From Candidatus Methanomethylicota archaeon (lineage in GTDB: Archaea; Thermoproteota; Methanomethylicia; Culexarchaeales; Culexarchaeaceae), in contig JAJHRD010000003.1 in the NCBI GenBank assembly GCA_020833005.1, positions 1 to 63,566 of the forward strand: 63,566 nucleotides of DNA, given 5' to 3'. Of this stretch, positions 14,541 to 26,225 are shown piece by piece. The notes beneath the pieces were generated by a model that saw only the letters and a program-made list of their open reading frames with translations, made no database searches and had not been told where the DNA came from. A program made the translations under genes and the position numbers. How positions within the stretch are numbered: the first letter of the stretch is position 1; the number at the start of each line of letters is the position of its first letter.

Positions 14541-15797
14541 ATGAATATACCCACCGGCTTTAAAACATTAACGAAGGTTGATGAAGCATTAAAGTTGATA
14601 GATGAAAGAGTAACCCATAAAGTGGAGGGTTATGAAGAAGTTGAAATTTCAGAGGCTATGAATAGGATATGCTATGAAGATGTAATATCACCAGTAAATG
14701 TACCACCATTCAATAGAGCTGCAATGGATGGATATGCTGTGAAAGCTGAAGACACAACATCAGCTTCAATAAAGAATCCCATAATCCTAAAAGTTATTGG
14801 ATGCATAGATGTTGGTGGAGCTGCGGAAATCGAGCTGAAACCTGGATGCGCCATAGAAATATCCACAGGAGCCCCCATGCCGAAGGGTGCAGATGCAGTC
14901 ATCCCATATGAGGAAACTAGGAGAATCAATGAATACATCGAAGTATATTCACAGGTGCATCCATGGAAGAACGTATCATTAATGGGGGAAGACATAAAGA
15001 TTGGAGACATTATATTGAGGAGGGGGACGATAATAAGGCCATGGGATATTGCAGTATTAGCATCAGTAAACATTTTGAAAGTTAAAGTTTTAAGGAAGCC
15101 AGTAGTGGGTGTACTTTCAACAGGATCTGAGGTTATAGAACCTGGTGAGAGTATTGAGGAGGGTAAAATATGGAATAGCACCAAGACTATGCTTAAAGCA
15201 CTAATACTGGAAGATTATGGGATACCATTAGATCTCGGCGTGGTGGAAGATGATGAAAACAAGATATGTGAAAAGATCATGAATGCACTACCTAAATGCG
15301 ACGTTATAATAACCACTGGAGGGACATCCATAGGTAGAAGTGATAAGACAGTAAATGCAGTGAAAAGGGTTGGTGGGGAAATAATATTCCATGGAGTATC
15401 CATGAGACCTGGAAAACCCACTGCCATGGCAATAGTTAAAGGGAAACCAATAGTTATGTTATCAGGATTCCCAGTAGCGGCATTAACGGGATATCAAAAC
15501 TTCGTTAGAAGAGTTTTGGAAAAGATATGCGGTATAAAGTTCCCACCACAACCAAGAATTAAAGCTAAAATTGATAGGAGAATTGCCTCCCAACTTGGGT
15601 CTAGAGAATATTTGAGGGTTAAGGTTTTGAGGAGGGGGGATGAATATATAGCAATACCACTAAGACTTACAGGTTCAGGTTTACTATCATCAATAACACA
15701 AGCCAATGGAATCGTGGTTATACCAGAAAATGTGGAGGGGTATGAAGAGGGGGATATTGTGGAAATAACCTTGTTAAGGGGGGTTGATGAATATTAG
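14541..15797 (+). CDS. moeA: Molybdopterin molybdenumtransferase MoeA (first copy)
   Basis: Inserts molybdate or tungstate into adenylated molybdopterin, the last step of cofactor synthesis. The 418-residue protein has the four MoeA domains: VPPFNRAAMDGYAVKAED near 54-71, STGAPMPKGADAVIPYEE near 108-125, GVLSTGSEVIEPGE near 189-202, and the MPT-binding ITTGGTSIGRSDKTVNAV with MRPGKPTAMA and LSGFPVAALTGYQNFV near 256-330. The C-terminal domain IV begins about 345. It starts 31 nt after birA and overlaps the second moeA by about 11 nt. Archaea often carry two MoeA proteins, one possibly specialised for tungsten. Confidence 0.95.
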   Translation: MNIPTGFKTLTKVDEALKLIDERVTHKVEGYEEVEISEAMNRICYEDVISPVNVPPFNRAAMDGYAVKAEDTTSASIKNPIILKVIGCIDVGGAAEIELKPGCAIEISTGAPMPKGADAVIPYEETRRINEYIEVYSQVHPWKNVSLMGEDIKIGDIILRRGTIIRPWDIAVLASVNILKVKVLRKPVVGVLSTGSEVIEPGESIEEGKIWNSTKTMLKALILEDYGIPLDLGVVEDDENKICEKIMNALPKCDVIITTGGTSIGRSDKTVNAVKRVGGEIIFHGVSMRPGKPTAMAIVKGKPIVMLSGFPVAALTGYQNFVRRVLEKICGIKFPPQPRIKAKIDRRIASQLGSREYLRVKVLRRGDEYIAIPLRLTGSGLLSSITQANGIVVIPENVEGYEEGDIVEITLLRGVDEY

Positions 15798-17763
15798 GAA
15801 GATATTCCACAAGTTGCTATCCATAGAGGAAGCACTTAAAATCGTAGAGGACAATATAACCTTAAAACCATTGGGCTTTGAAGAAGTTAATTTAACTGAA
15901 GCATATGGGAGAGTATTGGCTGAAAACGTAATTGCAAACATCGATCTACCACCATTCGATAGGGCAACCATGGATGGATATGCCGTGAAAGCTGAGGAAA
16001 CTTATGGTGCTTATGAAGATAATCCAGTGAAATTTAGGGTTATAGGTAAAATTGAACCTGGAGAAGAACCGAAAATTGAATTGAATAGTGGTGAAGCCGT
16101 AGAAGTATCCACTGGAGCACCAATACCAATAGGTGCAAACGCTGTGGTAATGGTTGAATATACACGTAGAGTTGAAGACTATGTATTCGTATATAAACCT
16201 GTAGGTGTTGGGGAGAATATTGCTCAAGCAGGCTCAGATTTAATGCTTGGAGAAACCATAATGAGAGCTGGGGAAATAATTGGTGTGAGGGAGATTGGGG
16301 TTTTAGCAGCCCTCGGAAGAATTAAAGTTAAAGTTTATAGGAAGCCAAAGGTGGCAATAATATCCACTGGAAATGAATTAACAAAACCTGGGACAATGCT
16401 TTCTCCATACAAGATCTACGACGTAAATACGTATAGCATATCCAGCTCAGTAATAGAGGATGGCGGAATACCAATAATCATTGGAGTAGTGGAAGATGAT
16501 GAAAATGAAATAAAGAGTAGGATTATGGAAGCTATGGGGGGATCAGACTTAATACTAATTTCTGGGGGGACATCAGCTGGAATTGGAGATTTAGTGTATA
16601 GAGTCTTGGATGGGATGGGTAGTCCAGGGATACTGGTTCACGGGTTAAAGACAAAACCTGGGAAACCAACCGTTATAGCCATAGTAAATGGGAAGCTCAT
16701 CATAGGTTTACCAGGATGGCCTGTCTCAGCATTAATGATATACAATTTAATAGTGAAACCCATAATTGCTAAACTAACTGGGAGGGGGAAGCCGGAGGAA
16801 TGGGAGGTTAAAGTGAAAATTGCAAGGAGAGTTAAATGTGAGAGGGGGAGAGCAAACCTAATACCAATAAGCATAATAACAAACGATGAAGGCAGATACA
16901 TTGGATATCCATTGATAGAGCATAGTGGAGCCATAGCCACATTGAAGAGGGCTGATGGATACATAGTCACAAAGGATACAACGGAATATGTGGAGGAGGG
17001 GGAGGAATACAATGCAAAACTATTCTCAAAGGAAATTAAAATTCCAGATGCAACTATAATTGGAAGCCACTGCCCAGCACTAGAAGAAATGGTTAAAAAT
17101 CTTGAGGGGGAAGGGTATAGGATTAAGCTAATACCATCAGGATCCACAGACGGCTTAATAGCAGTAATGAATGGTGAAGCAGACATGGCTGGAATACACA
17201 TATTGGATGATAAAACCATGAAGTACAACACCCCAATATTGGAAGAAATGAAGGTGAAGAATGCAGTACTGGTTAGGGGGTATAGGAGATTACAAGGATT
17301 GATGGTGGCTAAAGGCAACCCCAAAAGAGTAAATGGAGTGGAAGATTTACTTAGAGGGGATGTGAGAATGATAAATAGGAATAGGGGTTCAGGGACAAGG
17401 ATACTCCTAGACTATCTATTAAACACAATCGCGGAGAAGAGGATGGAACCCTTCGAAGATATTAAGAGGAGGATAAAAGGGTATAATGTTGAAGCTAAAA
17501 CACACTCCTCAGTGGCAATAGCCATAAAATATTCAAGAGCAGATGTAGGTATGGGAATAAAAACAGTTGCAATACAATACGACTTAGACTTCATACCATT
17601 AAAAGATGAAGAATACGATTTCATAATAAGTAAGAGGAGTTTGGGTAAAAGGGTTATAAAGGAATTCATAAACATATTGAAGAGTGAAGAATTTAAGAGT
17701 TTATTAAAATCAATGGGTATGGAGGCTCAGGAAAATATTGGCGAAGTGATCTGGGAGGGATGA
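15787..17763 (+). CDS. moeA: MoeA fused to a periplasmic-binding-protein-like domain (second copy)
   Basis: A 658-residue protein. The first 400 residues repeat the MoeA domains (DLPPFDRATMDGYAVKAEE, STGAPIPIGANAVVMVEY, ISTGNELTKPGT, ISGGTSAGIGDL, LPGWPVSALMIYNL). From about 425 a second domain begins, IIGSHCPALEEMVKNLEGEG, with SGSTDGLIAVMNGEADMAGI and MINRNRGSGTRILLDYLL; this is the PBP-like/LysR-type substrate-binding fold (PF12727) known from some MoeA proteins and molybdate regulators. I infer that it binds molybdate, tungstate or a cofactor intermediate. An ATG at 15787 follows GGGGGG; a TTG one codon earlier is possible. It is coupled to the first moeA by overlap. Confidence 0.93.
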   Translation: MNIRKIFHKLLSIEEALKIVEDNITLKPLGFEEVNLTEAYGRVLAENVIANIDLPPFDRATMDGYAVKAEETYGAYEDNPVKFRVIGKIEPGEEPKIELNSGEAVEVSTGAPIPIGANAVVMVEYTRRVEDYVFVYKPVGVGENIAQAGSDLMLGETIMRAGEIIGVREIGVLAALGRIKVKVYRKPKVAIISTGNELTKPGTMLSPYKIYDVNTYSISSSVIEDGGIPIIIGVVEDDENEIKSRIMEAMGGSDLILISGGTSAGIGDLVYRVLDGMGSPGILVHGLKTKPGKPTVIAIVNGKLIIGLPGWPVSALMIYNLIVKPIIAKLTGRGKPEEWEVKVKIARRVKCERGRANLIPISIITNDEGRYIGYPLIEHSGAIATLKRADGYIVTKDTTEYVEEGEEYNAKLFSKEIKIPDATIIGSHCPALEEMVKNLEGEGYRIKLIPSGSTDGLIAVMNGEADMAGIHILDDKTMKYNTPILEEMKVKNAVLVRGYRRLQGLMVAKGNPKRVNGVEDLLRGDVRMINRNRGSGTRILLDYLLNTIAEKRMEPFEDIKRRIKGYNVEAKTHSSVAIAIKYSRADVGMGIKTVAIQYDLDFIPLKDEEYDFIISKRSLGKRVIKEFINILKSEEFKSLLKSMGMEAQENIGEVIWEG

Positions 17764-17769
17764 TTTGAA

Positions 17770-18435
17770 ATGAGGATTATAGCCATAACGGATGTTCATG
17801 GAAGGTTAAACCAAGCATTAAAGATGGCTGAAACTGTTAAGAGGGAGGGGGTAAAAGCAATACTCTTAGCTGGAGACCTTTCAAGATATAAGTCCATTGA
17901 AGAAGCATATGAAATCCTAAAAGCATTAACCAGCGTTGGGGTAAAGGTATTCTATGTACCTGGAAACATGGATGACCCAAAAATATGTGAAGAAGTGAAT
18001 GTTGAAAATGCTATTTGCATACATGAAAGGACTGTGGAATTTGAGGGATATGTAATTGCAGGTATGGGAGGAGCCTTAAAAGGCCCATTCAACACACCAT
18101 TCGAATTAAGCGAAGAACAAATCCTTGAAATACTGAAGAAAGTAATGGATAAAATTGAAAGTGGAAAGAGAGCTATACTAGTAACACATAATCCACCATA
18201 CAACACTAAAGTTGATGAATTAGGTTTTAGAGAGCATGTGGGTAGTAGGAGTTTGAGGATGATCATTGAGAAATATAAACCAATACTGAATGTATGTGGA
18301 CATATACATGAAGCTAGAGGTATGGATAACGTTTATGGGACAATAGTGGTGAATCCAGGACCATTAATGCATGGCTACTATTCAATAATCGACATTGGGG
18401 AAGAGGTTAAAGTAAACTTGATGAAAATGCCCTAA
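17770..18435 (+). CDS. Calcineurin-like metallophosphoesterase
   Basis: A 221-residue dinuclear metallophosphoesterase. Motifs appear in order: ITDVHGRLNQAL near 5-16 (Asp and His ligands), LLAGDLSRY near 32-40, VPGNMDDP near 61-68 (Asn-Asp instead of the usual Asn-His), LVTHNPPYNTK near 137-147, and NVCGHIHEARGM near 174-185 (GHIH). The protein resembles the small archaeal Icc/YfcE-like group, likely a phosphodiesterase with unknown substrate. It is the last gene of the pxpA-birA-moeA-moeA run (6 nt after moeA), which makes a link to cofactor or nucleotide turnover possible but not shown. It overlaps convergent lysA by 4 nt. Confidence 0.88.
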   Translation: MRIIAITDVHGRLNQALKMAETVKREGVKAILLAGDLSRYKSIEEAYEILKALTSVGVKVFYVPGNMDDPKICEEVNVENAICIHERTVEFEGYVIAGMGGALKGPFNTPFELSEEQILEILKKVMDKIESGKRAILVTHNPPYNTKVDELGFREHVGSRSLRMIIEKYKPILNVCGHIHEARGMDNVYGTIVVNPGPLMHGYYSIIDIGEEVKVNLMKMP

Positions 18436-19712
18436 AAGACTTCATGTGAGAATATGTCTGCATAGCTTTCCCTCCTCCTAACCAATTTAACCTCCCCATC
18501 ACAATACATGACAATTGCAGGTTTAGGTCTACTATTATAATTGCTTGACATGGAAAATCCATATGCACCAACATTCATGATAGCCAATAAATCCCCCTGC
18601 CTAACCCTATTAAGTTTAACATCAAATCCGAATACATCGGAACTCTCACATATAGGTCCACCAACATTGTAAACTTCAACATCCTCATTGGATGATAAAT
18701 TGTATATTGGATGGTGAGCACCATACAGTGCTGGTCTAATTAGATCATTCATGCCAGCATCCACCAAAACCCATTTGACACCATAATTCTCCTTAACATA
18801 ATTAACTCTAGTTAGGAGTATGCCAGCATTTCCAACTATGAATCTTCCAGGCTCAATTATCAGTAGTGGTTGTGATGTGAAAATTTCCCTAGAGGCATTC
18901 TTCAACCTTTCAATGACCTTACAGTAATCATTCAATGGGAATGTTGGGTCTTCAATTGAGTATGGTACTCCGAATCCTCCACCTAAATCTATAATCTCCA
19001 ATTCCAATCCAAGACTTCTCTTAAGCTCAGCACAAAATGATAATATTTTATCCACAGCTATACTGTATGGTTGAATGTCAGTTATCTGGGAACCTATATG
19101 CACATGTATACCAGCAACATGAATATGGCTTAATTTCAAAGCCAAATTGTAAGCTTTAAATGCATTCTCAACACTTAAACCAAACTTATGAATCCTAGCA
19201 CCAGTACTAATATGACCATGAGTCTTTGTGGGTATATCAAAATTAACCCTAACACCCACAGAAACCTTAATGTTAAAGTCTCCTGCAAACTTATCTATCC
19301 AATACAATTCATCCATATTCTCAATATTTATGAGCAACACACCTTCAAAAACCGCATAAGAGAGTTCACCTGGAGATTTAGATACACCATCAAACACAAC
19401 TCTATCCATTGGAACCCCAGCAAGTTTAGCAGCATAAAGCTCACCCCCAGATACAACCTCAGCTCCAGCTCCAAGGGAATTTAAAAGTTTCAGTAAAGCT
19501 ATACAAGTGTTCGCCTTATATGCGTAGCATATTAGAAATTTATCGTAAACTCCACCTATGGCATTCCTCAAAATCTCATAATTATGCTTAACAACATCAC
19601 CATCAATGAAATATAATGGCGTACCATACTTCTCAGCCAGATAGTTTAAATCAACCCCTCTACCTTTCAGCTTTCCAATATAGTCTAAGAATATATCGCT
19701 TTTAACATTCAT
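18432..19712 (-). CDS. lysA: Diaminopimelate decarboxylase
   Basis: Decarboxylates meso-diaminopimelate to L-lysine. The 426-residue PLP enzyme of the alanine-racemase fold shows YAYKANTCIALLKLLNSLGA near 62-81 (PLP lysine), GAEVVSGGELYAAKLAG near 81-97, HVHIGSQITDIQPY near 198-211, LDLGGGFGVPY near 241-251, EPGRFIVGNAG near 287-297 and the intersubunit active-site motif CESSDVFG near 355-362. Its presence argues for the DAP route to lysine, rather than only the LysW route used by many Thermoproteota. It lies 7 nt downstream of the M55 peptidase gene and follows GAGGT, so the two are cotranscribed. Confidence 0.93.
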   Translation of the reverse strand: MNVKSDIFLDYIGKLKGRGVDLNYLAEKYGTPLYFIDGDVVKHNYEILRNAIGGVYDKFLICYAYKANTCIALLKLLNSLGAGAEVVSGGELYAAKLAGVPMDRVVFDGVSKSPGELSYAVFEGVLLINIENMDELYWIDKFAGDFNIKVSVGVRVNFDIPTKTHGHISTGARIHKFGLSVENAFKAYNLALKLSHIHVAGIHVHIGSQITDIQPYSIAVDKILSFCAELKRSLGLELEIIDLGGGFGVPYSIEDPTFPLNDYCKVIERLKNASREIFTSQPLLIIEPGRFIVGNAGILLTRVNYVKENYGVKWVLVDAGMNDLIRPALYGAHHPIYNLSSNEDVEVYNVGGPICESSDVFGFDVKLNRVRQGDLLAIMNVGAYGFSMSSNYNSRPKPAIVMYCDGEVKLVRRRESYADIFSHEVF

Positions 19713-19719
19713 TTAGCAG

Positions 19720-20550
19720 TTACCTCACAAGAGTTGAAGCTAAATATATCATTGAGCGTAAAGCTTTAAAGCACTTCAAATAATCATCTGAAATATATTC
19801 AACGGTTAATGCATCTACCCTCCTCACATCCGGAATCATGGTTGCCAATTCAGCCATAGCTGAATTCATGAATGTTAAATTGAGCTTTATGGGTGGATTG
19901 AATGTGAATGGGGAGAATGAATCAATATTCTCCAGTGCACGCTTAGCAGTAGACTTTATCAACTCACGCGCCTCAGAGGGGTGAAGGCAGAGTGCAGAAT
20001 ACCTTCCCAAAGCCTCCTTAACCTTAACTGTGAATACATTTCCAAGAAGCTTTTTAGCTTCATCAGTAACTGCAGAATCTCCAGTAACTAGAACCACTGG
20101 AACCTTATAATATCCAGCTATACCAGCATTAATTCCAACTTCACCAACACTTAAACCATTAATTGAAACATCACGAACCACCGAACCAGATATCGTATGA
20201 TCCATAATAGCATTTATACTACCGAACTTGGCATGATAACCTATGAAGAATACTGCATCAAAAGTTTCATCTATGCCAGCCATCATCGATAAGATCTTTG
20301 GGGAACCAGTTATCAATTTAGCTTTTGGATGCAATTCTTCAATTATTATATTTCTCATGGAGCCATGGGAATCATTAACCACGATCTCCTTAGCTCCACC
20401 TTGAATAGCACCCTCCACAGCAGCATTAACCTCCATGGTCATCAATCTACATGCACGTTCATAATCCCTACCACCAGGATTTGTCTGATCACTATGTACA
20501 ACTCCACATACTCCTTCAAGATCTGCGGAAATAAATACCTTAAATCCCAT
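19720..20550 (-). CDS. M55 family D-aminopeptidase (DppA-like)
   Basis: A 276-residue zinc peptidase of the DppA family, which forms large self-compartmentalising rings and removes D-amino acids or cleaves peptides. Signature pieces are ISADLEGVCGVVH near 6-18 (Asp-x-Glu metal ligands), EIVVNDSHGSMRNI near 58-71, FIGYHAKFGS near 101-110, DHTISGSVVRDVSINGL near 116-132 and VLVTGDSAVTDEAK near 153-166. The ATG at 20550 is preferred over a GTG two codons upstream. Being paired with lysA suggests peptide or amino-acid metabolism. D-specificity is not certain, since archaeal members are mostly uncharacterised. Confidence 0.88.
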   Translation of the reverse strand: MGFKVFISADLEGVCGVVHSDQTNPGGRDYERACRLMTMEVNAAVEGAIQGGAKEIVVNDSHGSMRNIIIEELHPKAKLITGSPKILSMMAGIDETFDAVFFIGYHAKFGSINAIMDHTISGSVVRDVSINGLSVGEVGINAGIAGYYKVPVVLVTGDSAVTDEAKKLLGNVFTVKVKEALGRYSALCLHPSEARELIKSTAKRALENIDSFSPFTFNPPIKLNLTFMNSAMAELATMIPDVRRVDALTVEYISDDYLKCFKALRSMIYLASTLVR

Positions 20551-20736
20551 AAACACTTCACAAATAAATTTATAGTAAATGATACCTTTAAAAGAGTAAT
20601 TGTTTGAAGGTAAACAAAAGGTTCCTTACATAAGTTTTTCAAGTCAGTAACTAATCCAACACATTTTATAAATAAACCAAGTGAATAAAAAGTTTGAAAT
20701 AGAATAAAGTTAAATAAAAGGGTTTGTATGTAGTGC

Positions 20737-21891
20737 TTACCATTCAAATAGTTCGACGTTGGCTCTTGGAACTATGACTCTTCTACCGTCTTGTAGCTCT
20801 ATTTCAACAACTCTCACTGGAGATTCTGTTTCGACTAGTTGTAGTTCGATTGGTAGGTTTACTACTTTAGCTAGCTCTCCAAAGTATGGGGCTCTGATAA
20901 CTCTAACTTTAGTTCCAGGTTGCATGCCTCCAACGTAAATTTCGGATTCTAATGGTAGTGATAGGGGGTCAACGTCATCTCTTGGGATGACTATTTCAGG
21001 TCTAATTACGCCTGCTCTGATTTGTGTTGCACCATCGAAGCATGCAAGTTTACCTTCATTAGCTTTAAATAGGTTGAATGTTCTTGAAGCCATTGGAATT
21101 CTGCCAAACCCTTCAGTTATTATTAGAGTCATGGATATATCTTCTCTACCAGTAATTGCAACTCCAATTTCGTATCCGAGGAAGTCTCTTATATCTTTGA
21201 AGTCTACGCCACCCACAACTATTCCAGCAGCCCCAATTTCCATAGCCTTTTTGAGGACCTCAGCTGATGCATACGACCCACCAACAACAAGTTTACCCTT
21301 CCATTTTGGTGAAATCATATCCATAGTTAACTCATCCTTTGGAGAATCAACGGCTACGAGTATTTCACCATGCCTCTCGCCTCCAATGCCAAATATCCCC
21401 TCAATGAATGTGGATGCACAATCTATCACTACACCCTCATTTGGAATTATTTCCGTTACTATTCCAGGTATGTATGCATCAAGCTCCACTGGTATTGGAG
21501 GCTCCCTAACAATTATTTGCCCAGTAACTTCAGATATATGCTCAATGTAACCATCAACTGGCGATTTAACTTCAGACTTCAATAATCCAAAGAATGCTTT
21601 GTAACTTGCAATAACCTCACCTTTCTTAACTGGTTCACCAACCTTCTTCTTAACATATAATGGTAATTCTTCAGGTTCAACACCTAGAATTGCTGCAGCA
21701 CTAATTATCTGTATGTCGCCTGGCAGTTTAGTTCTTGCAACAATATCGGAATAGTTTACTTTGTCACCCTTATTTACGAGGACTTCCCCTGGAATTGGTA
21801 GCCTCCTAGTCTTTCTAAATCTGAATAGTTCAGATATTCTTAAGCCCGGAGTATATGCATGTGCAGATTGGGAAGATCTCTTAGAAGACAT
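20737..21891 (-). CDS. GlmL-associated protein with barrel-sandwich hybrid and KOW-like domains
   Basis: A 384-residue protein whose function I do not recognise. Residues 25-75 hold a short beta region (GEVLVNKGDKVNYSDIVA). Residues 80-150 resemble a lipoyl/biotinyl-type barrel-sandwich hybrid (VKKKVGEPVKKGEVIAS, SEVKSPVDGYIEHISEVTGQ, IPGIVTEIIPNEGVVID) without a recognisable modified lysine. Residues 185-290 look alpha/beta (KGKLVVGGSYASAEVLKKAM, GIVVGGVDFKDIRDFLGYEI, ITGREDISMTLIITEGFG). The C-terminus, about 320-384, has a KOW-like strand turn (GTKVRVIRAPYFGELAKV) and ends RVIVPRANVELFEW. It is 14 nt downstream of the GlmL-like gene, and its ATG is preceded by GGGGGTGA. The pair probably works as one system, perhaps handling a cofactor-bearing partner. 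Confidence 0.6.
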   Translation of the reverse strand: MSSKRSSQSAHAYTPGLRISELFRFRKTRRLPIPGEVLVNKGDKVNYSDIVARTKLPGDIQIISAAAILGVEPEELPLYVKKKVGEPVKKGEVIASYKAFFGLLKSEVKSPVDGYIEHISEVTGQIIVREPPIPVELDAYIPGIVTEIIPNEGVVIDCASTFIEGIFGIGGERHGEILVAVDSPKDELTMDMISPKWKGKLVVGGSYASAEVLKKAMEIGAAGIVVGGVDFKDIRDFLGYEIGVAITGREDISMTLIITEGFGRIPMASRTFNLFKANEGKLACFDGATQIRAGVIRPEIVIPRDDVDPLSLPLESEIYVGGMQPGTKVRVIRAPYFGELAKVVNLPIELQLVETESPVRVVEIELQDGRRVIVPRANVELFEW

Positions 21892-21905
21892 TCATATTCA
21901 CCCCC

Positions 21906-23756
21906 CTAAATCTTCTCCTTACTCATAATGGTTTCTGGATAAGCATTCAATGCCTTAAACCACCTCAACAATGCCTCTCTACGCTGGCGGAAGTCTTCTG
22001 GAAGCTTCAATGGTCTACCTCTGGCATCTATAACTATACCAGCAGCTCCACCCCAAACAGTTGCCTCCCTCCTCTTCCCAGGACCCATACCAACATCGAA
22101 ATCACCTGTTGGCTCAATAATAACAGTTGCAGTTTCATCATCACGTAGAGGTATCCTATCAATATCACCATAATTGACAACCTTCTCCACAGTTCTACCA
22201 TCAGGCATATGGGCAGTAACCTTCACTGCAGGTCCAGGAGACTTGGCATGACCATCAAGAGCTATAACTGTCCCAAGCTTCACGATACAATCCCTCTCAA
22301 ATATTTCCATGGCAGCCTTCGGATGTACAGTTGATAAGACGCCGAGATGTGGCATCATGAATATGCTATCACACATAAGCCTTGTAACACCCTTTGGCTG
22401 GAATGCATCTATCAATATGAGTGCAGCTTGTTGTCTACGTGGAGTATGGGATAATAGGCCTCCAGTTCCACCAATCAACTGGATATTCATCATGTTTATG
22501 TATGTTTCAGTCTCCATGGATTGCTCAAATATATCTGCAATAGTCCTCCTCCTCTGAACACCCCTCAAACCCCTAGCCAACAACTTATGATGCTCAAATC
22601 CAAGCCTAATGGCTTCCCTTGCAACTGCATGCTCCACAAGCAGATCATCCAATGTTTGAGGTAAAGTGGTTGGTCTAATCATTTTATTTGCCAACCTATT
22701 CCTAACCTCCCTCTCATCCATCTCAAATGGTAACCACCTCATTATATTAGTTACACCAGCCTCCTTCAAAACATTGGTGATACTATAACTCATACCCAAA
22801 TTCGCACTAACAGTTCTAACGAACTTCCCCTCATAAACGGAGTAAACGTTTGTTGTAGCTCCACCCAAACCTACACCCAAAACGTTAATATTCCACATCT
22901 TTGCAATAGTTCTAAACATCATACCCTCACCGGCAGGCGTTGGCATGACTGGAACCATAACCCACTCAGTTAATTTATGATATCCAGGGGCATGAGCCAT
23001 AACATGCTCCATGAACAATCTATGTATGGCATCCCTAGCAGGCTCCACAACCTCAACTTCCAGTACAGGTCTCAAATTATCCACAATGGTTAAATCAAAT
23101 GTTTCGCCAAGAGTCTTCTTTATATGTTCCCTAGCATCCTTATTTCCAGCATAAACTATTGGAAGCTTGTAGCCTAATCCAAATCTTGGTTTTGGTTCAG
23201 CTGCCTTTATAAGCTCAGCCATCTCCACAACATGCTTTATAGTTCCACCATCAGTTCCACCAGCTAGTAGTATCATGTCAGGTCTTAGGAAACGCATCCT
23301 CTCAATCTTCTTATGTGGAGGTCTACCATCATCTATTGCCATAACATCCATAACTATTGCACCAGCACCAAGGGCAGCCCTCTCAGCGCTCTCAGCAGTC
23401 ATGGTCTTAACGACACCTGCAACCATCATCTGCAATCCACCACCAGCACTACTCGTCGATACGTATAGATCTACACCCACATTATTCCCTTGATATGGGA
23501 TTATGAGACCAGAACCATCTGGTTTTAGTAGTTTATGTCCAGTTAATTCTTCAACTTCAGTTATGGCATTCCTCAACCCCATGGTTACATCTTCAAATGG
23601 CTTCTCAACAGTGGTTGGAGCTTCACCAGCACATATAAACCTCCAAACTCCATCCACCTTCTTAAACAATCTAGCCTTCGTCGTGGTGCTACCAACATCA
23701 GTTGCTAAGGCAACTTGCATTTTCTCAACATCAAATTTCATAACTTTTACACTCAT
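21906..23756 (-). CDS. GlmL/MutL-family actin-like ATPase
   Basis: A 616-residue protein of the GlmL family. The ASKHA ATPase core begins with ALATDVGSTTTKARLFK (phosphate-1 loop) and continues with STSSAGGGLQMMVAGVV, DMILLAGGTDGGTIKHVVEMA (adenosine/phosphate-2 type loops), VLGVGLGGATTNVYSVYEG and LIGGTGGLLSH. GlmL is encoded with the B12-dependent glutamate mutase GlmES in some bacteria and is thought to act like a reactivating chaperone. Here no mutase, B12 gene or reactivase small subunit is nearby, only the barrel-sandwich/KOW protein downstream. The ATG at 23756 follows GGTG at a spacing of six. It is first in the two-gene operon. Confidence 0.85.
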   Translation of the reverse strand: MSVKVMKFDVEKMQVALATDVGSTTTKARLFKKVDGVWRFICAGEAPTTVEKPFEDVTMGLRNAITEVEELTGHKLLKPDGSGLIIPYQGNNVGVDLYVSTSSAGGGLQMMVAGVVKTMTAESAERAALGAGAIVMDVMAIDDGRPPHKKIERMRFLRPDMILLAGGTDGGTIKHVVEMAELIKAAEPKPRFGLGYKLPIVYAGNKDAREHIKKTLGETFDLTIVDNLRPVLEVEVVEPARDAIHRLFMEHVMAHAPGYHKLTEWVMVPVMPTPAGEGMMFRTIAKMWNINVLGVGLGGATTNVYSVYEGKFVRTVSANLGMSYSITNVLKEAGVTNIMRWLPFEMDEREVRNRLANKMIRPTTLPQTLDDLLVEHAVAREAIRLGFEHHKLLARGLRGVQRRRTIADIFEQSMETETYINMMNIQLIGGTGGLLSHTPRRQQAALILIDAFQPKGVTRLMCDSIFMMPHLGVLSTVHPKAAMEIFERDCIVKLGTVIALDGHAKSPGPAVKVTAHMPDGRTVEKVVNYGDIDRIPLRDDETATVIIEPTGDFDVGMGPGKRREATVWGGAAGIVIDARGRPLKLPEDFRQRREALLRWFKALNAYPETIMSKEKI

Positions 23757-23831: not shown

Positions 23832-24311
23832 CTACAGATGGTTATTTGAAGTGGGATTGGCAGCATCTCCACTCCCCCCAGATTGCTTGGATTCCACGGT
23901 CTCTTCCTTAACCCTCTCCCCTCCTGAGAAGCTTAGCTTAATGTAAGTGTTTTGAGCACACTCATTAATATTTGATTTCAACAATATTATTCTTATAGCC
24001 CAAACCACCGCTACCCCAACACTCAATATTATTAGGTTAAATTCAATTAGTGGTAGGATCACTATCAATATGAATAGTAATACTGAGATATTAAGCCTAT
24101 AACCAAACCTAACGAAATCACCTTCATCTATAACGTATATCTTCGCTTCACCGAATATATCGCTATATATTAAGTCAAACCCCCTCTCCCTAGAAACTTT
24201 AGTTGTAAGCCCCCTACGCCTCATCTCCTCAGCAAACCCCTTAATGAAATCACTCCTCAAACCACCAATTTCGGGGAAAAGCCTCTCACTAACAGACACA
24301 CTAACAGACAT
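23832..24311 (-). CDS. Small membrane protein of unknown function
   Basis: A 159-residue protein with no family I recognise. Residues 1-70 are soluble and mixed charged (RLFPEIGGLRSDFIKGFAEE, FDLIYSDIFGEAKIYVIDEG), followed by two adjacent membrane helices (about 74-92 ISVLLFILIVILPLIEF and 93-110 LIILSVGVAVVWAIRIILL). A short soluble region and a low-complexity Gly/Ser/Asn tail end it. The soluble N-terminus may face the cytoplasm. It is 40 nt downstream of the PIN-PilT-KH ATPase gene on the same strand, so cotranscription is likely. Codon use looks like its neighbours. Confidence 0.6.
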   Translation of the reverse strand: MSVSVSVSERLFPEIGGLRSDFIKGFAEEMRRRGLTTKVSRERGFDLIYSDIFGEAKIYVIDEGDFVRFGYRLNISVLLFILIVILPLIEFNLIILSVGVAVVWAIRIILLKSNINECAQNTYIKLSFSGGERVKEETVESKQSGGSGDAANPTSNNHL

Positions 24312-24351
24312 TCTGATCAAACATAGTTTATTATTGAAAGTATATTAACGT

Positions 24352-26172
24352 TTACTGTTGTTGTGAAGGCTTAAACTCAATGTTCAAACCATTCCTCAAA
24401 GCATCACTCAAAATCTTGCCAACATCACTGGAAATGTTAAATACTATTCTAGCACGCTTATCACACTTATACGAACCCACATATCTACCATCAACATAAA
24501 CATCCATATTACATTTAGCATAATCTCTACCAAAATAGAATATTAGGCTACGTTTAGTCTCACGATAACTATAATCAACACTCCCAGAATGCATTGAAGA
24601 TGAAACTCTTGGTTGAAGTTCAATTCTAACATTAAACCTCCTTTCAATACTACTTATCAAACTCCCATTCCTACCAACTATACGTGGAATAACATCCCTA
24701 TCAACCTTAACAATCACAGAATTATCTGAGATAACATCCAATTCAGCATTGGGATCGAACCGCCTAATATACCTCAATAAATCATCAAACCTCCTCCCCA
24801 AACTCCTACCCCTAGCTTCCCCCCTAATTGGAACTATAACCGTTTCCTCACCAAATGCATATATCTCATATTCAACCTCACCACTCTCAAAATCCCTAAC
24901 TTCAACCACAGGTCTAGCTAGATCCTCATCAGTCATACCATGAGGAACCTTAACAACCAAATCCAACTCATAAACCTTCCTGACAGATCCATCCTTAATG
25001 AATATCACAGTGTCAATGACTTGTGGTATAACACCATAATCTATCCTACCAATAAATCTATGTATGGCATCAACAGGTGAAGATGCATGAACCACACCAA
25101 TCATCCCAACACCAGCAAGCCTCATATCCACGAAAACCTGGAAATCCTCAGTTTTCCTCAACTCATCAAAAACAGTGTAATCGGGTCTAACTAGCAATAG
25201 GATTTCAGCAGTCTTATAAAACTCCCCCTCCAAAGGGGCATACTGAGTTATTTCATCGTTAACCTGTAAATCCCTAGGAGACTCCATGGTCTTAACAATG
25301 GCATTCTTTGTGGAGCGATAGAATTCAGCTAGAGCTGAAGCAAATGTGGATTTACCAGCACCAGGGGGGCCGCATATGAGTATACCCTCAGCCCTCTCCG
25401 CAAGCCTCCTCTTCAACCTATCAGATAAAGCGTAATCTTCAAGGGAAACCTTAACTATGGGTCTCACGGCCGTTATCTCCAATCCATCTGAAAATGGAGG
25501 TCTAGCTATGGCAATCCTATAATCTCCAAGTTGCACCACCATTGCACCATGCCTAACAATTTCGATGAATGCATTGCCATTAGAGTGACATCTCCTAAGT
25601 ATATCCCTAACTAGATGCTCAAGCTCAGCCCTCTCACAAACACGATCCCTAATTTTAACAAGCTCCCACCTCCCAGGTCTACCACGCTTAGCATATGGTG
25701 GAACCCCCTCCTTCAAATGAACACTCATGGTGTCATTGGTAAAGAAGTCTTCAATCTTCAGATTTGCATAATCAGACTCTAAACCAATAAACCTAACCTT
25801 AACACCCTCAGCTTCAGCCACAAGTGACTGAACATAATCCATTGTGTAAAGTGTGGCATCATACTTCTTAGCCACATCCCTAATCAAAGCATCAATCCTA
25901 CCCATACCAGCCATCTTAATATCTTCAATGGATGCAATTTCACCAACAATATTGATGCTAATCCCCCTATCCCCAGCCATCCCCCTCAACTTAATAATCT
26001 CATCAAGCCCCCTGAAGCCACTCTCCCTACCATTCGAAGCTTGAGCTTGCAACTCATCTAAGACTACCCTCGGAATAATTATTTCAACATCCCTAATATC
26101 CTCTTCCAAAATAATCTTGGAAAGCCTACCCTCCACCAATACACTTGTATCTGGAACTATCCTATTCACCAT
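24352..26172 (-). CDS. PIN-PilT-KH ATPase (archaeal PINc-VirB11-like)
   Basis: A 606-residue archaeal three-domain protein. The N-terminal PIN domain carries the acidic residues in VPDTSVLVEG near 6-15 and VVLDELQAQA near 36-45, plus DAT-LYTMD near 105-112. The central PilT/VirB11-type ATPase has Walker A GPPGAGKSTF near 268-277, the DYTVFDELRKTEDF Asp box/Walker B region near 330-343, and a His-box-like VHASSPVDAI. A KH RNA-binding domain near 490-535 has GRNGSLISSIERRF. The family is widespread in archaea, with a suspected RNA-processing or ribosome-linked role, but the function is unproven. ATG at 26172 follows GGAG; a GTG is three codons upstream. Confidence 0.9.
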   Translation of the reverse strand: MVNRIVPDTSVLVEGRLSKIILEEDIRDVEIIIPRVVLDELQAQASNGRESGFRGLDEIIKLRGMAGDRGISINIVGEIASIEDIKMAGMGRIDALIRDVAKKYDATLYTMDYVQSLVAEAEGVKVRFIGLESDYANLKIEDFFTNDTMSVHLKEGVPPYAKRGRPGRWELVKIRDRVCERAELEHLVRDILRRCHSNGNAFIEIVRHGAMVVQLGDYRIAIARPPFSDGLEITAVRPIVKVSLEDYALSDRLKRRLAERAEGILICGPPGAGKSTFASALAEFYRSTKNAIVKTMESPRDLQVNDEITQYAPLEGEFYKTAEILLLVRPDYTVFDELRKTEDFQVFVDMRLAGVGMIGVVHASSPVDAIHRFIGRIDYGVIPQVIDTVIFIKDGSVRKVYELDLVVKVPHGMTDEDLARPVVEVRDFESGEVEYEIYAFGEETVIVPIRGEARGRSLGRRFDDLLRYIRRFDPNAELDVISDNSVIVKVDRDVIPRIVGRNGSLISSIERRFNVRIELQPRVSSSMHSGSVDYSYRETKRSLIFYFGRDYAKCNMDVYVDGRYVGSYKCDKRARIVFNISSDVGKILSDALRNGLNIEFKPSQQQ

Positions 26173-26225
26173 AAACTCCACAATACCTTAGAGAGAAGAA
26201 TGTATAAAGAAACTAATAAACTTAA

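Follow-up and report, generated by a model that had tools for sequence, protein, structure and literature searches.

A two-gene pair in a 63,566-nucleotide stretch of the genome of a Candidatus Methanomethylicota archaeon (contig JAJHRD010000003.1, positions 1 to 63,566; hereafter the window) encodes an actin-fold protein of the MutL/GlmL family, here called MutL, and a 384-residue companion. This pair very probably belongs to a conserved six-component system, the other four members of which are the membrane proteins of a cassette with the gene order DUF6754-mB-mC-mD. The companion is an obligate partner of MutL here, and the two proteins very likely form a physical complex. We lean towards a reading in which interchangeable membrane modules of four subunits, most likely devoted to solute uptake, would share MutL and the companion as a cytosolic unit driven by nucleotide. 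An earlier note, made from the sequence of the window alone, had described the pair as an independent chaperone-like or cofactor-handling unit; it missed the cassettes because none lies inside the window, the nearest known one being ~82 kb away on the same contig. The host is a metagenome-assembled genome (MAG) close to Candidatus Culexarchaeum.

Co-inheritance of the pair with a membrane cassette

The cassette was seen in a related archaeon (G201), where two four-gene membrane cassettes flank the MutL/companion pair. The first gene of each encodes a DUF6754 protein (PF20539), and the following genes, mB, mC, and mD, encode membrane proteins matching no family. Order and single-strand orientation were the same in all 52 complete cassettes read, some of them from overlapping loci. 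A Neomarinimicrobiota contig, like those of several relatives, carries the six genes as a single run, MutL-companion-DUF6754-mB-mC-mD, and in two of these relatives MutL and the companion are fused in one open reading frame (ORF; 1006 and 1003 aa) immediately before DUF6754. This fusion is the strongest single hint of a permanent physical complex. The earlier note had left open whether the companion was a client or an adaptor of MutL; the natural fusion argues for a permanent subunit or adaptor and against a client.

In a sample of 300 genomes from the phylum of the window, full-length MutL and DUF6754 occurred in the same 6 genomes, and the other 294 contained neither above cut-off, with one stray 19-bit DUF6754 match among them. 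The genome of the window has six DUF6754 copies, five in complete four-gene cassettes and a sixth in a cassette truncated where the contig stops, and the other five genomes have 3 to 7 copies each. It thus shows both features by which we recognize the system, a companion adjoining or fused to MutL and at least one complete cassette. Weak MutL matches of ~50 to 70 residues in many genomes of the phylum were discounted, as they cover mostly the ASKHA loop of the N terminus, within proteins of other kinds.

When the 84,980 species of the GTDB collection were scanned with a companion profile, the protein turned up in Culexarchaeia, Bathyarchaeota, a Nitrososphaeria bin, candidate division WOR-3, Armatimonadetes, Elusimicrobiales, and Neomarinimicrobiota. 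It was not found in viral, plasmid, and phage collections. Wide occurrence of the companion without a GlmL-like protein, which the earlier note had named as an argument against its proposal, was not observed: outside Culexarchaeia, companion-bearing genomes of several phyla contained MutL in 16/16 cases and DUF6754 in 14/16, and in 120 genomes from the phylum of the Neomarinimicrobiota member MutL accompanied the companion in 73 of 76. In this bacterial sample MutL was present in 74 genomes and DUF6754 in 70; 69 genomes had all three proteins and 43 lacked them all (every pairing gives a Fisher p below 1e-23, phylogeny ignored), and several of the exceptions sit at contig ends. The pattern of co-occurrence recurs in Archaea and Bacteria. 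In three WOR-3 genomes, we also observed the companion directly after a 931- to 986-aa protein with 11 to 13 predicted transmembrane helices that reads like DUF2723 and stands apart from MutL and DUF6754 (L067 3567-7488, L068 6311-10346, and L074 7045-11128).

The cassette proteins differ in predicted architecture. DUF6754, which scores up to 304 bits to PF20539 in archaea and 411 bits in bacteria, has two transmembrane helices and an alpha/beta domain; mB is polytopic with ~5 helices, mC has two helices and an extracytoplasmic domain of ~220 aa, and mD is polytopic with mostly 3 to 6 predicted helices. By the positive-inside rule, the two-helix DUF6754 proteins are N-out in 29/31 cases, placing their soluble domain in the cytosol, and the two-helix mC proteins are N-in in 38/39, placing theirs outside. 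Homology between DUF6754 and mC was rejected (hhalign probability 1.9%), and none was found between DUF6754 and the companion. Profiles of PDB sequences gave no convincing relative of the companion, DUF6754, or mC, and Foldseek returned nothing usable for DUF6754, the model of which was poor (pLDDT 62).

Additional proteins were seen beside some cassettes. A soluble protein of ~291 to 313 aa, the L037 copy of which has no NCBIfam match, adjoins archaeal cassettes (L037 12684-13559, L065 17069-17950, L071 5738-6679, and L080 5521-6396) and is a possible seventh component. Near MutL or DUF6754 in Neomarinimicrobiota relatives lies a small membrane protein of ~140 aa with a W-x-x-H/Y-P start (L201 4489-4911, L202 8427-8843, L203 3272-3697, L205 7640-8074, and L206 6872-7297), possibly another component. 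In a bathyarchaeon (G300), the DUF6754 or mD reading frames of two cassettes are split or shortened (L155 6468-9243 and L156 8233-11200), reflecting either assembly errors or decaying modules.

MutL, its companion, and the mutase question

The MutL ORF begins with GTG, with an in-frame ATG at 23756 three codons later, and encodes the only MutL copy that a PF13941 profile search detected in the genome of the window (406 bits, E 2.6e-121, residues 20-493, cut-off 27). The minus-strand pair with its 14-nt gap was confirmed as the earlier note had drawn it, and the gap, with its G-rich, ribosome-binding-like stretch, suggests that the two genes are co-transcribed. The note had called the protein a full-length GlmL. 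Its ASKHA core is indeed the one common to the GlmL/MutL family (NF040745, NF040744, TIGR01319, and PF13941), but the protein falls below all GlmL-type cut-offs (GlmL, 210 versus 475 bits; Or-4, 211 versus 600; TIGR01319, 143 versus 204) and has a conserved C-terminal extension of 125 residues that is missing from these models. Residues G573, G576, D580, R582, G583, P585, and W602 of the extension are conserved in archaea and bacteria, and 149 MutL residues are invariant over members from both domains.

The MutL/companion unit is independent of glutamate mutase. No mutase had been noticed near the pair, and this absence extends to the whole genome: glutamate mutase GlmE (PF06368) was above cut-off in 0/22 genomes carrying the system, that of the window among them, and the two proteins of the window's genome with a B12-binding domain (PF02310) are a corrinoid protein adjoining an MttB-superfamily methyltransferase (246 bits to a solved trimethylamine methyltransferase) and a radical-SAM protein, so that neither is of the mutase type. 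A B12-enzyme reactivase, exchanging damaged cobalamin at the expense of ATP, would find no client enzyme here. The published description of Culexarchaeia does not mention glutamate mutase. Membership in the Pfam family would fit an ordinary GlmL serving an overlooked B12 mutase, which the earlier note had recognized as fatal to its proposal, and the ~5% of the genome missing from the MAG could hide such an enzyme; yet with 22 system genomes devoid of GlmE, the low scores, the C-terminal extension, and the companion, we regard this explanation as extremely improbable. The link to glutamate mutase was rejected on the negative GlmE and B12-binding searches. Mutase-linked members of the GlmL family and the missing mutase would also suit the stand-alone chaperone or cofactor-handling unit of the earlier note, with the companion as client or adaptor. 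Independence from glutamate mutase is a part of that proposal that held, but the pair is genetically inseparable from DUF6754-mB-mC-mD cassettes, and the near-perfect co-inheritance, operonic linkage, and MutL-companion fusion leave a free-standing unit little credibility.

The three loops quoted in the earlier note (STSSAGGG, LAGGTDGG, and GVGLGGATTN) are all present in MutL, and the PHOSPHATE-1 loop (DVGSTTTK) matches the ASKHA pattern DxGSTxxK. The PHOSPHATE-2 loop of archaeal MutL is not the acidic loop of an ASKHA ATPase, reading GVGLGGATTN versus GVDIGGATTD in bacteria, and residues 145 (D/N) and 280 (E/V) are further fixed differences between archaea and bacteria. Judged from the alignment, these positions represent a domain-level switch of active-site acids; in archaeal MutL, the acids may have moved elsewhere, or the nucleotide may be bound without hydrolysis. 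A divergent second MutL in another genome (G313, L189 6438-7994; 518 aa, PHOSPHATE-1 pattern unmatched) is followed by a companion-like ORF, which hints at a degenerate or specialized second set.

Both folds that the earlier note had read in the companion found support. Profile matches were below threshold but consistent, to RnfC_N and biotin_lipoyl for residues 79-128 and to KOW for residues 325-345, and in an AlphaFold2 model (19-sequence alignment, mean pLDDT 84), the N-terminal half is rich in beta structure and is followed by an alpha/beta middle domain and a KOW/SH3 barrel. Foldseek matched the model to Spt5 KOW domains with probability 1.0 and a TM-score to target of 0.82 to 0.83, confirming only the barrel. 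Contig JANZKA010000007.1 of C. Culexarchaeum nevadense has the same gene at 96% identity. A role as biotin or lipoyl carrier was rejected, as an E-x-M-K-M or DKA motif is missing and the aligned K105 does not have the spacing of a carrier lysine. The weak matches of the companion to RnfC_N and NQRA_N, together with the placement of MutL in the ASKHA group of BadF/BcrA (a weak match), would be compatible with a membrane-bound redox or ion-pumping complex, in which the companion resembles RnfC/NqrA and MutL is an ATP-driven activator of electron transfer like HgdC/BadFG. No Cys is found among the invariant positions of the companion, DUF6754, mB, mC, and mD, indicating that a conserved set of Fe-S ligands is lacking; no match to a flavin family was obtained, and cassette numbers do not follow those of one bioenergetic complex. 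We consider such a complex quite improbable.

One MutL/companion pair and several membrane cassettes

The genome of the window contains six cassettes versus one MutL/companion pair, a Culexarchaeum genome (G062) seven versus one, and two bathyarchaea nine DUF6754 matches versus two to three MutL matches, some of them fragments. A tree built from concatenated cassettes has at least four types common to Culexarchaeia and Bathyarchaeia, and with midpoint rooting the bacterial cassettes form one clade nested among the archaeal types. By this phylogeny, the cassette paralogues are ancient. Among the paralogues of G062, DUF6754 is the most conserved (mean 40%, versus 29 to 32% for mB, mC, and mD), as would be expected if DUF6754 alone must fit a shared cytosolic partner. 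Mirror-tree correlations (r 0.85 to 0.90) were not used as proof of a complex, since they mostly reflect orthology across genomes and within-genome distances are saturated.

Archaeal cassettes adjoin genes for catabolic enzymes, including amidohydrolases, M20, M24, M81, and TldD/PmbA peptidases, S-methylthiohydantoin-desulfurase-like proteins, DUF885 proteins, aminotransferases, acyl-CoA dehydrogenase, and PYC/OadA. Hydrolases of C-N bonds (amidohydrolases, metallopeptidases, and the S-methylthiohydantoin-desulfurase-like proteins) made up 9/47 immediate cassette neighbours, or 11/47 with DUF885, versus 1/30 genes drawn at random from the same loci at a distance of four or more positions (one-sided p 0.042 and 0.016, respectively). 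The DUF885, PYC/OadA, and acyl-CoA dehydrogenase linkages each recur in two genomes of different families. As a separate observation, a gene of the tubulin/FtsZ GTPase family adjoins one Culexarchaeum cassette (L087 6150-7208, also L081 11371-12456).

With one domain outside and another inside, two polytopic subunits, and a nucleotide-binding unit that is soluble, the system has the layout of a transport machine, and by analogy with the one-to-many arrangement of ECF transporters, MutL and the companion may act as a shared nucleotide-driven clamp or switch on DUF6754. In the working that we propose, MutL and the companion would be the cytosolic half and DUF6754-mB-mC-mD the membrane half, with a single MutL-companion complex serving several diverged cassettes per cell. 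mC and the polytopic subunits would recognize a solute and pass it, presumably inward. The actin-fold MutL, as a clamp that opens and closes in dependence on nucleotide, would drive or gate this passage, and the permanently attached companion would relay the movement by contacting the cytosolic domain of DUF6754. Each cassette would handle another organic solute, to be processed by the adjoining catabolic enzymes. That the six-component system performs solute transport at all is, in our judgement, evenly balanced, and primary active transport by the actin-fold protein is a tentative proposal.

Several findings weigh against this working. No similarity of any subunit to known transporters, in sequence or fold, was detected (the DUF6754 model having a pLDDT of 62), and the archaeal MutLs lack both Asp of the PHOSPHATE-2 loop, so that ATP hydrolysis is not assured. 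The enrichment of hydrolase neighbours is modest and uncorrected for relatedness, and the Fisher tests and co-occurrence counts ignore shared ancestry. WOR-3 and Armatimonadetes have MutL, the companion, and the cassette at loci apart from one another. In the bacteria read, the cassettes had no consistent catabolic neighbours, and the bacterial version may therefore have a housekeeping role in the envelope.

These bacterial cassettes, mostly one per genome (1 to 3 in the genomes searched), are among the points that favour a non-transporting use of the same six components, namely an envelope-spanning machine for lipid or polymer handling, secretion, surface assembly, or mechanical or energy coupling. 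MutL would then serve bitopic membrane proteins as a ring or clamp in the cytosol, like PilM or FtsA. The combination of an actin-fold protein with bitopic membrane proteins bearing soluble domains on both sides fits this alternative, as do the extra N-terminal extracytoplasmic region of some bacterial DUF6754 proteins, which reads as fibronectin-III-like, and the 12-helix protein of ~930 to 990 aa that adjoins the WOR-3 companion. The 6 to 9 ancient, divergent cassettes per archaeal genome, located by different catabolic genes, are hard to explain in this way but natural for solute-specific modules. We thus consider an envelope machine unlikely, if a serious contender, and retain the shared unit with interchangeable uptake modules as the favoured reading.

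Locus features and relation to known systems

Features of the pair are collected in Table 1.

Table 1. Positions of MutL, the companion, and their parts in the window
Feature	Position	Strand	Basis or remark
MutL/GlmL-family actin-fold (ASKHA) protein, 619 aa	21906..23765	-	PF13941 406 bits; sole genome copy; 149 invariant residues
PHOSPHATE-1 loop LATDVGSTTTKA, residues 20-31	23673..23708	-	Kept in all full-length members
PHOSPHATE-2 loop GVGLGGATTNVY, residues 297-308	22842..22877	-	Archaeal form without the two Asp of bacterial GVDIGGATTDVF
MutL C-terminal extension, residues 494-619	21909..22286	-	Beyond Pfam/NCBIfam GlmL models; archaea and bacteria
14-nt gap, MutL stop to companion start	21892..21905	-	G-rich ribosome-binding-like stretch
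Companion, 384 aa: N-terminal barrel-sandwich, alpha/beta middle, C-terminal KOW/SH3-like barrel	20737..21891	-	ORF, profiles, model
Companion barrel-sandwich hybrid, residues 79-129, RnfC_N/biotin-lipoyl-like, no attachment motif	21505..21657	-	Sub-threshold match; AlphaFold2 model
Companion alpha/beta domain, residues 185-303, near-invariant TLIITEGFG...GATQIRAGVxRPE	20983..21339	-	Alignment; AlphaFold2 model
Companion C-terminal KOW/SH3 barrel, residues 325-384	20740..20919	-	KOW profile match; Foldseek to Spt5 KOW

Upstream of MutL in the window are a 162-aa membrane protein without family (23832-24320) and a PINA-type PIN/ATPase/KH protein (24352-26181; NF010335, 786 bits); the order PhoU-like, PINA, small protein, MutL, companion is kept in Culexarchaeum and two related genomes (L036, L038, L039, and L040). 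The three Culexarchaeum genomes all have genes for a D-aminopeptidase (M55) and diaminopimelate decarboxylase (lysA) immediately downstream of the pair and on its strand (18432-20556 in the window). Farther away, the window encodes a MoeA fused to a PBP-like domain (15784-17763; 659 aa, NF011068), with another MoeA-like ORF just upstream (14541-15797).

The earlier note had suspected an undescribed system, and we found no match to a described kind: as far as the open-access PMC literature was checked, with subscription journals and preprints outside its scope, no membrane system of six components that includes a nucleotide-binding subunit of the actin fold has been described. In contrast to GlmL systems, the companion and the membrane cassette replace GlmE/GlmS or ornithine mutase. 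For DUF6754, no function or system is recorded and the name is absent from the same literature; its context with MutL, the companion, mB, mC, and mD is an addition of the present analysis. Group II ECF-type vitamin transporters have a shared energizing module for several unlinked, substrate-specific membrane parts, and our system likewise has one cytosolic unit for many such parts, by analogy and not by homology. Unlike ABC and ECF transporters, it has no ABC ATPase: no ABC match was found in MutL or the companion, and no ABC gene was a constant part of the unit in the pair and cassette loci read. It has instead an actin-fold protein, and one of its four membrane subunits bears a large extracytoplasmic domain. 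PilM and FtsA are cytosolic actin-fold proteins coupled to bitopic membrane proteins, an arrangement that is again analogous; no sequence relation to them was found, and in the searches run the companion and cassette were unrelated to pilus or divisome genes. Regions of the companion resemble the RnfC/NqrA barrel-sandwich and the Spt5/NusG KOW domain in sub-threshold or fold-only matches, but the companion has neither a quinone, flavin, or Fe-S context nor a transcription context.

Naming by homology as a methylaspartate mutase accessory protein would misannotate this MutL across whole phyla and falsely suggest B12-dependent glutamate fermentation. Conceivably, though with less than even confidence, the system represents a new class of primary transporter, with an actin-fold (ASKHA) motor instead of a P-loop ATPase, one motor-adaptor complex for many interchangeable four-subunit modules, a range over Archaea and several bacterial candidate phyla, and nucleotide-site chemistries that differ between archaea and bacteria. 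The logic of one motor and many modules would be testable by genetics in any cultivated host. The system is multiplied 6 to 9 times in deep archaeal lineages of poorly known nutrition, and once its cargo is identified, the way in which Culexarchaeia, Bathyarchaeia, and Marinimicrobia feed could be tested directly.

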